Below, piece after piece: positions 52,531 through 55,819 of a DNA stretch of 64,000 bases. The DNA comes from Desulfuromonas sp. AOP6. GTDB lineage: Bacteria > Desulfobacterota > Desulfuromonadia > Desulfuromonadales > SZUA-540. Each line of letters starts with the position of its first letter. The stretch's first letter is position 1. A model generated the notes under the pieces. That model was not told where the DNA came from. It saw nothing but the letters and a program-made list of their open reading frames with translations, and did no database searches. The translations under genes and the position numbers were made by a program. Location of the stretch: contig NZ_AP022810.1 of assembly GCF_009731355.2 (NCBI RefSeq), positions 1,950,001-2,014,000 on the forward strand, written 5' to 3'.

Positions 52531-53865
52531 CTAACGCCGTCCTATGCCGTTGTATGCAAAGCCGGCTTTTTTCACCATCGCCGGTTCGTACTGGTTACGG
52601 CCGTCAAAGATGATCGCCTGCTTCATGGCCCGCTTCATGGCGTTGAAATCGGGGTGACGGAAAGGCTTCCATTCCGTCACCAGCACCAGGGCATCCACGC
52701 CGGCCAGGGCCTCATACTGGTTTTTCACCAGCTCGAGCCGGCCATTTTCAAACCAGTCGGCCGGCAGCACCTTGCGGGCCATGTCCATGGCCACGGGGTC
52801 ATAGGCTTTCACCTTGGCGCCGGCGCCGATGAGTTCATGCAGCAGCACCTCAGCGGGCGCCTCCCGCATGTCGTCGGTCTCCGGCTTGAAGGCCAGTCCC
52901 CACAGACCAAAGGTCAGGTGGGAGAGATCACTGCCGAAGTGCTCGGTGATCTTGCTGAACAGCACATGCTTCTGCACCTCGTTGCGGTTGTGAACCGAAC
53001 GCAGCACCATGGAATCGAAGTCGACCTCTTCCGCCATGCGGATCAGGGCGCGGACATCCTTGGGAAAGCAGGAACCGCCATAACCGCAGCCCGGGTAGAT
53101 GAAGGAATAGCCGATGCGGCTGTCAGAGCCGATCCCTCGCCGCACATTCTCCACATCGACCCCGAAGGCATCGCACAACCGGGAGATTTCGTTGATAAAA
53201 GAGATCTTGGTGGCCAGCATGGCGTTGGCGGCATACTTGGTCATTTCGGCGTCACGCACCCCCATGAAAAGCGTGCGCTCATGATTGCGGTTGAAGGGCG
53301 CATAGAGCTCCCGCAGCATTTCGCTGGCCCGCTCGCTCTCCGTTCCGATAATAATACGATCGGGGCGCATGAAATCGGCCACGGCCGAACCTTCCTTGAG
53401 AAACTCGGGGTTGCTGGCCACATCGAAGGGAATCGACACCCCGCGTTCCGCCAGAGTGTCCCGGATGGCGGCCGCCACCTTGTCCGCCGTTCCCACCGGC
53501 ACCGTCGACTTGTCCACCACCACGCAATAGTCCCGCATATGACGGCCGATCTCACGGGCCACGGCCAGCACATACTGCAGGTCGGCCGAGCCATCCTCCC
53601 CGGGAGGCGTACCCACGGCGATAAAATAGACGGAAGAATCCACCATGGCCTCGGCCAGCTCGGTAGTGAACTGCAAACGCCCTTCGCGGACATTGCTCTC
53701 CACCAGATCATCCAGCCCGGGTTCGTAAATAGGGATGATCCCCTGCTTCAAACGTTCAATCTTGTTTCTATCGACATCGACACAGGTAACCGTATTGCCC
53801 ATTTCAGCAAAACAGGCCCCGGTCACCAACCCGACGTAACCGGTTCCGACCACGGTGATATGCAT
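52531..53865 (-). CDS. ugd: UDP-glucose 6-dehydrogenase
   Basis: 444 residues. [23 protein letters not shown] is cut by the usual GxGYVG dinucleotide motif. The catalytic cysteine lies in YGGSCFPKD, with [20 protein letters not shown] preceding it. It oxidises UDP-glucose to UDP-glucuronate with two NAD+. Promoter elements lie at 53930-53958, with the 502-base repeat-bearing gap behind them. Confidence 0.97.
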
Positions 53866-53929
53866 AACCTATATCCTTTCCGGAAATAAAAAAAGGCAGC
53901 AGGAAAACAGCCTTTACTTACCATATTTC

Positions 53930-53958
53930 GTTATAGAAACCCAAGACTTTGCTGCCAA
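53930..53958 (-). promoter_or_regulatory. Candidate sigma70 promoter for ugd-epimerase
   Basis: The minus strand reads TTGGCA, 17 bases, TATAAC, about 65 bases before the ugd ATG. Both hexamers match well. Confidence 0.58.
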
Positions 53959-53970
53959 TCAGGCGAAAAC

Positions 53971-54378
53971 TTCTTTTCACCACCAAGGCACGGTGACACC
54001 AAGGAGAATCTATAATGGCCACTAAAACAAAGATCTGATCATCAACCCGAACCAGCCCTTCTTGGTGCCCTGGTGTCTTCGTGGTAAACCGCCTGTCAGC
54101 TTTTGAAAAGTTCTTTTCACCGCCAAGGCATGGAGAGACCAAGGAGAATCTAAAATGGCCGCTAAAACAAAGATTTGGTCATCAAGCCCTTCTTGGTGCC
54201 CTGGTGCCTTGGTGGTAAACCGCCTGTCAGCTTTTGAAAAGTTCTTTTCACCACCAAGGCACAAAGACACCAAGGAAACCCCTAAATTCAAACGGGACCC
54301 AGGTACGGGCTGTTATCCTTAAGCCAGCCCTCCTTGGTGCCCTGGTGTCTTCGTGGTAAACCGCCTGTCAGCTTTTGG
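53971..54378. repeat. Triplicated palindromic repeat array
   Basis: Three consecutive units start with TTCTTTTCACCrCC at 53971, 54111 and 54242 (lengths 140, 131 and ~137). Each has a left arm CACCAAGGCA...ACCAAGG and a right arm CTTGGTGCCCTGGTG..., which are inverted relative to each other. Each ends with the same CCGCCTGTCAGCTTTTG at 54089, 54220 and 54361. Units 1 and 2 share a core; unit 3 has another. The last copy of that end sequence contains the stop codon of the beta-CASP gene. Short minus-strand frames inside the array are not genes. The gap between ugd and the beta-CASP gene holds only this and the ugd promoter. Confidence 0.93.
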
Positions 54379-55819
54379 TTTGCCCCAGCCTGACTTGCAA
54401 CGAAGGCACCGCTTCCTGCAGTTTCTCCTTCAACGCCTGCCGGGCCGGTCCATCGCCATGCACCAGCACGACCTCGCGGGGGTGACGCCGCATGCCGCGC
54501 ACGAAACGCACCAGGTTGCTCTGGTCAGCGTGGGCCGAATAACCACTGATGGTGTGCACGCGGGCGCGGATGTCATAACGCTGGCCGTCCAGAACCACGT
54601 AACCCTGGTTGGGGCCGTATTGCTGAATAGCACGGCCGGGCGTGCCCTGGGCCTGATAGCCCACAAAAAGGACATCGGTACGCTCATCAGCCAGCAGCGC
54701 CTTGAGGTAGTTGACAATGCGTCCGCCGGCGCACATGCCGCTGGCAGCGATCACAATACAGGGGCGGGCGTTCTTTTTGAGATAAGCGACCGTATGCAGG
54801 TGATCCTCATGACTGTCAACGGTGGTCAGCTGTTCGAAACAGAGGGGATGACGCCCCTGCGACAGGCGCTTTTTCGCCTCCTGGTCCCAGTACGGTTTGA
54901 GCTGACGGTAGGCTTCGGTAAAGCGGGAGGCCAGGGGAGAATCGACAATGATCTCCAGCTCCTCCCAGGGGAGACCGCGAGCGACATAGTCCTGCCGATG
55001 GCGATGGATCAGCTCTTCCAGCTCGTAAAGGAGTTCCTGGGTGCGCCCGATGCTGAAGGCCGGCACCAGAATAACGCCCCGATCCCGCAGGGCCAGATCA
55101 ATCACCTCTTTGAGGCGACCCCGCCGCTCGCGCCGGTCATCGTGCAGCCGGTCGCCGTAGGTACTCTCCAATATAAGAATATCGGCACGATCAGGCGCTT
55201 TGGGGGCCGGCAGCAAGGGTGTGTAGGGCGCACCGAGGTCGCCGGAGAAGACCACGCGCACGGTTGCCGACTCCCCCTCGGGCTGCACCTGGCACTCCAC
55301 ATAGGCCGAGCCAAGGATGTGCCCCGCCGGTCGGAAACGCACCGTGAGCGTGCTGGCGCTGCCGGTATGCACCTCGGCCCACTGCCCGCAGGGCACCGCC
55401 ACAATCTGACGCTTGAGCCGTTGGGCAAAACGCTCCAGCAAGCGGCGATCGCGGGTAAAACCCACCTTCACGGCATCTTCCAGCACCAGCGGCAAAAGCA
55501 GCGCCGACGGCTCCGTACACAGAATCGGCCCCTCAAAACCGGCCGCCAACAGATGGGGAATGCGGCCGACATGGTCGATGTGCACGTGCGTGACCACCAG
55601 GGCCCGGATATGCCCGATGGGAAAGTCGATTTCCTGCCCATTCTGGCCGGCATCCTCCCGGGGCGCGTCATTTCCCTGAAACAGGCCACAGTCGATCAGC
55701 ACCGCCGCCTTGTCATCCAGGCACAGTTCATGACAGGAACCCGTCACACCGTTGGCAGCACCGTGATGAAGAACATGGGGATACATAAAAGATTCGCTCT
55801 TTGTCATTTTACTTGGCAT
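54368..55819 (-). CDS. Beta-CASP metallo-beta-lactamase, RNA-processing type
   Basis: 483 residues. The metal motif HVHIDHVGRIP (HxHxDH), then SGDLG, and the beta-CASP motifs LILESTYGDR, IIVDSPLA, GMCAGGRIVNYL and SGYSAHADQ match the CPSF73/YSH1-like and RNase J-related group. Such proteins are RNA endo- or exonucleases. ATG at 55786 (MYPHVLHHGAANG) is a plausible alternative start, since the family aligns from there. It stands amid polysaccharide genes without an obvious link. Its 3' end is within the repeat array. Confidence 0.9.
   Translation of the reverse strand: MPSKMTKSESFMYPHVLHHGAANGVTGSCHELCLDDKAAVLIDCGLFQGNDAPREDAGQNGQEIDFPIGHIRALVVTHVHIDHVGRIPHLLAAGFEGPILCTEPSALLLPLVLEDAVKVGFTRDRRLLERFAQRLKRQIVAVPCGQWAEVHTGSASTLTVRFRPAGHILGSAYVECQVQPEGESATVRVVFSGDLGAPYTPLLPAPKAPDRADILILESTYGDRLHDDRRERRGRLKEVIDLALRDRGVILVPAFSIGRTQELLYELEELIHRHRQDYVARGLPWEELEIIVDSPLASRFTEAYRQLKPYWDQEAKKRLSQGRHPLCFEQLTTVDSHEDHLHTVAYLKKNARPCIVIAASGMCAGGRIVNYLKALLADERTDVLFVGYQAQGTPGRAIQQYGPNQGYVVLDGQRYDIRARVHTISGYSAHADQSNLVRFVRGMRRHPREVVLVHGDGPARQALKEKLQEAVPSLQVRLGQTKS

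Follow-up and report, generated by a model that had tools for sequence, protein, structure and literature searches.

The window analyzed here is a stretch of 64,000 nucleotides of the Desulfuromonas sp. AOP6 genome, which consists of a single contig of 3,269,909 bp. At 53965-54377 of the window lie three tandem units whose starts, as given by direct-repeat families, are at 53965, 54105 and 54236, with spacings of 140 and 131 bp. On one side of this array is a gene for a UDP-glucose/GDP-mannose dehydrogenase (52531-53865, minus strand, from the list of open reading frames), and on the other a gene for a beta-CASP metallo-beta-lactamase (54368-55819, minus strand; Pfam Beta-Casp, RMMBL and Lactamase_B), the 3' end of which abuts the array. 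Epimerase, polysaccharide synthesis protein and sugar transferase genes are also close by; the dehydrogenase gene next to the array belongs to a polysaccharide region.

Each unit of the array, none of which has an assigned strand, carries a left arm on the plus strand and a right arm on the minus strand. These arms lie at 53978-54004 and 54059-54085 in unit 1 (53965-54104; 140 bp, direct-repeat family D1), at 54118-54144 and 54190-54216 in unit 2 (54105-54235; 131 bp), and at 54249-54275 and 54331-54357 in unit 3 (54236-54377). A first-pass annotation, made from the sequence of the window, had recognized three tandem inverted-arm units that end in an identical sequence, and the direct-repeat families bear this out, as do the three copies of that sequence. 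It was right that the arms are inverted and that two of the units measure 140 and 131 bp; the third is about 142 bp rather than about 137 bp, and the arms are built not of one CACCAAGG sequence but of about three tandem 8-bp units of the CACCAAGR type, as in the three of the left arm of unit 1. Its observation that two units have a common core and one does not also stands: the cores of units 1 and 2 match with a score of 69, while that of unit 3 has no match to them and is instead common to an array at 730 kb (best score 90), approximately 1.27 Mb away.

The 17-bp sequence CCGCCTGTCAGCTTTTG closes each unit and is identical at 54089-54105, 54220-54236 and 54361-54377, the third copy being at the beta-CASP gene itself. 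It comprises the stop codon of that gene (54368-54370), two codons and one further base of its coding sequence, and 7 bp of 3' flank. The copying of the gene end into the other two units, as originally proposed, is therefore real but short.

The array belongs to a dispersed family. The AOP6 genome contains 22 matches to the 408-bp array (the array included; next best E value 3.5e-45), and a degenerate pattern for the arms has 30 matches, 15 on each strand, versus one for a reversed control pattern. These counts indicate that the family is not due to chance, and they refute the alternative that the first-pass annotation had left standing, a local duplication with no other copies. Inverted pairs of arms are present at nine loci (384, 730, 965, 2004 [the window], 2035, 2617, 2628, 2630 and 2636 kb), three of which hold tandem arrays: those at 384 kb (three units), at 730 kb (four) and in the window (three). 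In the 384 kb array each unit copies about 103 bp of the end of the neighboring gene. The nine loci also show the suspected preference for gene 3' ends, one lying no more than 33 bp away at six of them (the value for the window comes from the list of open reading frames, and the 2630 kb site has no gene assigned). Among 13 elements we found no target-site duplication, the longest word common to the 14-bp flanks being 5 bp, with exact ends uncertain.

One member of the family encloses a gene. At 2035 kb the same arms surround a gene of the GxxExxY family (TIGR04256), which is broken by a frameshift into two matching pieces. The only other GxxExxY gene that we found in the genome is intact and located at 2025 kb, where the arms on either side of it have a 9-bp period (ACAGGGATG type); directly next to it are two tandem gene-less units of the same 9-bp motif (L045:1247-1887). 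As the two genes lie between different arm motifs, each of the two arm classes in this one genome has a gene of its own.

These genes match the TIGR04256/PF13366 family above the curated profile cut-off. The product is a predicted PD-(D/E)XK nuclease of about 120 residues (Pfam profile PDDEXK_3, E value 1.6e-43) in which D65, E75 and K77 are invariant among 36 aligned sequences. An AlphaFold2 model had a mean pLDDT of 93.5, and its top structural match was the Cas4 protein 4ic1 (Z 10.0, rmsd 3.5 over 100 residues). Further matches were to restriction-endonuclease-like folds, Holliday junction resolvases and Cas4-like proteins; nearly all of these had Z scores below 8, and a common arrangement may be all that they mean. 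Foldseek gave no match with an E value of 0.001 or less, and a sequence search of the PDB gave no solved relative of GxxExxY. The protein has the D...ExK residues of PD-(D/E)XK nucleases, and its confident model shows their core fold. In some GxxExxY frames (L082, L084) the C-terminus appears to enter the downstream arm, so that the arm would be partly translated.

We considered and set aside two other settings for these genes. Close relatives were present in 8 of 72,556 plasmid records and in none of 50,697 phage records, in a scan that sees near relatives only, and we therefore rejected phage or plasmid cargo; two loci with GxxExxY relatives in viral contigs both had an inverted match between their flanks (scores 48 and 34). 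A role in defense was likewise rejected, since the matches from PADLOC were weak (PDC-M36A, E value 0.0089; Cas4 models, 0.012 to 0.059). The open-licence papers in PubMed Central yielded no function or flanking repeat for GxxExxY (TIGR04256, PF13366, PDDEXK_3), no link between GxxExxY and a repeat, and neither of two arm strings; because the search was limited to these papers, a prior description elsewhere is possible. In the available text of two of them GxxExxY is mentioned by name only (PMC8934634, PMC12085832).

The arrangement of a GxxExxY gene with inverted arms extends well beyond AOP6. We scored a locus as positive when the two flanks of the gene, taken to a maximum of 400 bp each, gave an inverted local alignment with a score of at least 28. 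GxxExxY genes were found in 42 of 58 genomes of the same order, and 70 of the 80 genes tested in these relatives had an inverted flank match (of 89 match rows, eight short fragments were dropped, and 80 of the remaining 81 had sufficient flank). Among named GTDB genomes from 15 phyla the match was present at 58 of 75 genes with enough flank, taken from the best 80 of 585 confirmed stretches; these loci represent one clade because they were found by a scan for the pattern GPGLLES[AVT]Y. Within the same best 80 of 585 stretches, 13 of the 15 phyla had at least one positive locus, with Bacteroidota weaker (13 of 22). By comparison, genes for YraN, a small family of housekeeping nucleases in the superfamily to which GxxExxY belongs, had an inverted match at only 2 of 27 loci (30 were sampled, and three were cut by contig ends), and control windows elsewhere in the same GxxExxY loci matched in 6 of 184 pairs. 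Pairing the flanks of different loci gave 155 matches in 1,247 pairs, a rate raised by arm classes that are common to several loci.

Some matches that pass the score-28 test are something other than tandem arms (for example L138, L139 and L144); under a stricter test, which required each side of the gene to carry at least two units of the same motif out of seven, 97 of 161 loci were positive. At 77 loci with arms of the C-R-C-N-R-A-G class, the nearest arms pointed inward at 51, outward at 13 and in mixed directions at 13, indicating that the gene mostly sits within a pair of arms but can also fall between elements. The family can be described as a GxxExxY gene lying inside or next to a pair of inverted arms, each composed of about three units of 8-10 bp, together with gene-less copies that keep the arms, and we regard the link between the repeat family and the nuclease gene as firm. 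The first-pass annotation had missed this tie; of its overall interpretation, growth by duplication is supported and structure maintained through base pairing is not.

The class of the arms follows the phylogeny of the nuclease. On a tree of 153 of the 161 proteins, 96 of which carry an arm label, arm class changed 20 times compared with 44.9 times for shuffled labels, and none of 200 shuffles gave a count as low; this was a quick tree of 128 columns with many unresolved forks, and the motif classes were defined after the arms had been seen. All 76 labeled proteins in the main clade (114 rows) have C-R-C-N-R-A-G arms, and the 20 labeled proteins in the other clade (39 rows) have other arm classes. 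Shuffling labels within the seven genomes that hold differing labels gave 17.45 changes versus 10 observed, and none of 500 shuffles was as low. The host alone therefore does not explain arm class.

Arms far from the gene are also associated with a nuclease gene of the matching class. At least five CCAAG arms more than 800 bp from the gene were present in 4 of 4 genomes with a class-matched gene versus 10 of 54 without one (P 0.0024), and the corresponding figures were 4 of 4 versus 5 of 54 for TTCCGTG arms (P 0.0003) and 5 of 5 versus 16 of 53 for CGCAGAG arms (P 0.0044), all three P values being rough because the genomes are related and the patterns can cross-match. By the same counts, 10, 5 and 16 genomes, respectively, hold at least five arms and no class-matched nuclease gene. 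Distant TTCCGTG arms are often local: no match listed for genome G051 is farther than about 5 kb from the gene, and most of the matches in G050 are within 3 kb, while those in G025 are spread over the chromosome and some of those in G024 are three-mismatch matches of the CTCCGTG type. Clustered, cassette-like groups of TTCCGTG arms were seen in G007 (C12, 370-408 kb), G050 (C39, 12-17 kb) and G051 (C1, 733-740 kb).

A parallel system is present in the same relatives. Genes for four-helix-bundle proteins (TIGR02436; L171-L200), S23-like proteins encoded in intervening sequences of 23S rRNA, had an inverted flank match at 27 of 29 loci tested (one of the 30 sampled was too short), as against 1 of 50 control window pairs. 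In both systems the gene has on its two sides inverted arms that are made up of short tandem units; they differ in that GxxExxY is by name another protein family and in that the arms of the four-helix-bundle genes have a sharp period of 7 bp. Among nine single-contig genomes with both gene types, four have the two within 25 kb of one another, compared with 0.27 expected, and only 1 of 20,000 rotations gave as many; the test used strong four-helix-bundle rows, and the 25 kb limit was set after the distances had been seen.

Comparison with one sister species gave a view of how the elements change; sites at the window, 730 kb and 2035 kb were judged by eye, from their flanks, to be the same in both genomes. 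The dehydrogenase stretch (window 52600-53985) has 92% DNA identity to the sister, in which a single degenerate element follows the same dehydrogenase gene (L202). The sister yielded no DNA match to the beta-CASP gene, and the site of the array is therefore a break in gene order. At 730 kb the sister has one unit versus four in AOP6. These single units opposite three and four, together with the repeated gene end at 384 kb, sustain the original proposal that the array grew by duplication. Elsewhere the sister has no unit and one right-arm remnant (384 kb), an arm remnant where the element is missing (2628 kb), one arm shorter by a single 8-bp unit (2630 kb) and a decayed copy (2636 kb). At 2617 kb the flanks are collinear and the core that they enclose is turned around in one species relative to the other (L043, L205), with a score of 50 in the inverted and 14 in the direct orientation, and none of 2,000 shuffles scored as high. 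We found no clean insertion or empty site in this comparison; the two sites where the sister has no element, at 384 and 2628 kb, both keep arm remnants. Loss, inversion and tandem change are the forms of rearrangement expected of breakage and recombination at the arms.

At the sister site matching 2035 kb, an open GxxExxY frame lies between CACCAAG arms (L203:1917-2279). This frame has glycine at the name-giving glutamate, a residue that is invariant in sets of 23 and 36 aligned sequences. With the CACCAAG-class gene frameshifted in AOP6 and the glutamate lost in the sister, both copies may be inactive.

Several known systems share features with this family. In REP/RAYT systems, as described in the available text of two papers (PMC3733652, PMC3116915), inverted doublets lie between genes, mostly downstream of coding regions and with many gene-less copies, and the enzyme gene is flanked by repeats to which it is specifically paired. 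The array family likewise has inverted doublets near gene 3' ends. Its arms, however, are direct tandem units of 8-10 bp rather than palindromes of 20-40 bp, and single arms from 13 elements fold at 0 to -5.9 kcal/mol; either of the GTAG and CGTC tags that consistently mark one end of REP repeats, or its complement, is near an end in only 4 of the 13; and the flanked gene found here is a PDDEXK_3 gene, not a RAYT tyrosine transposase gene. By analogy, the family would follow the same logic as REP/RAYT with unrelated parts. In Geobacter metallireducens, the available portion of Aklujkar et al. 2009 describes opposite-strand pairs of three or four tandem 8-9 bp repeats (classes 1 and 2), at variable distance, as predicted sites for a global regulator, possibly IHF/HU (PMC2700814). 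Judged by that description, those sites resemble ours in being opposite-strand pairs of three tandem 8-9-mers, but unlike the GxxExxY elements they are not linked there to a nuclease gene. Multicopy intergenic families in Geobacter bemidjiensis and Pelobacter carbinolicus, palindrome-based or of direct repeats according to the available text (PMC2996986, PMC3543383), are similar in these same respects, a comparison of descriptions rather than sequences. Like MITEs, the elements are short, non-coding and present in several copies with terminal inverted repeats; unlike MITEs, they show no target-site duplication in the 13 elements and have no known parental transposase. Integron attC sites have the core sites GTTRRRY/RYYYAAC; we rejected this candidate because core sites occur in only 4 of the 13 elements, three of which are units of one array. 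Heptamer repeats have reportedly been described in Beggiatoaceae.

We consider it modestly probable that these observations reflect a family of inverted-arm elements, a GxxExxY nuclease acting on their arms, and amplification driven by repair, with the window array representing three tandem gene-less copies of such an element. The matched arm and protein classes would be explained most simply if the nuclease acted on the arms, and what suggests that the elements are mobile is their shared cores and dispersed copies. On this model the nuclease would be specific for the units repeated in its own class of arm and would cut at the arms, perhaps upon their extrusion as a cruciform, and the breaks would be repaired by copying, template switching or recombination of arms with one another. 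Such repair could produce tandem units that take the end of the neighboring gene with them, cores that are inverted or swapped, elements lost with an arm left as a scar, and gene-less copies that spread, many of them to positions just 3' of genes.

A different role for the units would be as transcribed hairpins that act in RNA as 3' end structures, stabilizers or processing sites for their neighbors. The three units of the window fold at -33.5 to -54.5 kcal/mol, below mononucleotide shuffles, so the earlier expectation that they are able to form structure holds, and these energies, like the position of six of the nine loci near a gene 3' end, speak for such a role. The idea that compensatory changes maintain the structure was not supported. 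Across 17 elements, arms paired with their own partners in 368 of 425 cells versus a mean of 372.1 for re-partnered arms (1,754 of 2,000 re-pairings were as high), there was only one both-side change, and positions between the motif units varied regardless of pairing. This test left out units 2 and 3 of the 384 kb array, which are near copies, the 2630 kb element, whose right arm is short, and the degenerate and decayed elements of the sister species. With no compensatory changes in the arms, recognition of a motif is favored over RNA pairing; the arms appear to be constrained as motifs for sequence recognition, and pairs of them could still form cruciforms. We therefore rejected RNA structure as the main constraint. 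Moreover, no Rfam family matched the array at its gathering score, and we took weak matches to a microRNA family (E value 0.015) and a viral element (E value 0.77), far below the cut-offs, as chance. An RNA role alone also does not predict that arm class should track nuclease clade, and overall we think it unlikely that the units serve as transcribed hairpins.

The arms might instead bind a host DNA-bending or regulatory protein of the IHF/HU type, with GxxExxY as a passenger. The similar paired sites that the available text on G. metallireducens treats as predicted global regulator sites (PMC2700814) lend this some appeal, but a general host factor fails to account for differing arm classes that coexist in seven genomes and track the nuclease clade, and we hold this to be the least probable of the explanations. 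The elements could also be moved by a transposase or RAYT whose gene lies elsewhere, with GxxExxY as cargo that travels with its arms. Co-inheritance of cargo and arms would also yield the signal on the tree, and we know of no transposition activity for GxxExxY; the same layout around the same protein family in 13 of 15 phyla, however, is not expected of cargo, and the absence of target-site duplications also argues against it, so that this explanation too has only a small probability. Finally, the array could be inactive at present, a tandem duplication in decay, which we regard as quite possible, if just short of probable. This is compatible with the preferred explanation of arm-directed cutting and repair, which concerns origin. 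The window array may well be a relic, given that the CACCAAG-class gene is perhaps dead both here and in the sister and that several elements have decayed or been lost in the sister; decay nevertheless leaves the origin of the dispersed family and its link to the nuclease unexplained.

Taken together, our findings suggest a simple self-spreading element together with an enzyme that matches it, apparently without previous description. Tentatively, we propose as possible, though short of probable, that these are widespread selfish elements in which a nuclease of about 120 residues reads units of 8-10 bp, with arm and protein classes that diverge together, several classes coexisting in a genome and many gene-less copies, and that a parallel system exists of four-helix-bundle proteins and 7-bp units. 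If so, the two systems could account for a substantial fraction of the inverted repeats that lie between genes in many phyla, and the elements may help to reshuffle surface-polysaccharide loci such as the one in which the window array sits. The matched pair gives a testable role both to GxxExxY genes and to arms, neither of which had an assigned role in the open-licence PubMed Central papers searched. It would also provide a natural set of putative DNA-recognition specificities in a very small nuclease, as well as a route for tandem growth, the copying of gene ends and rearrangement beside genes.
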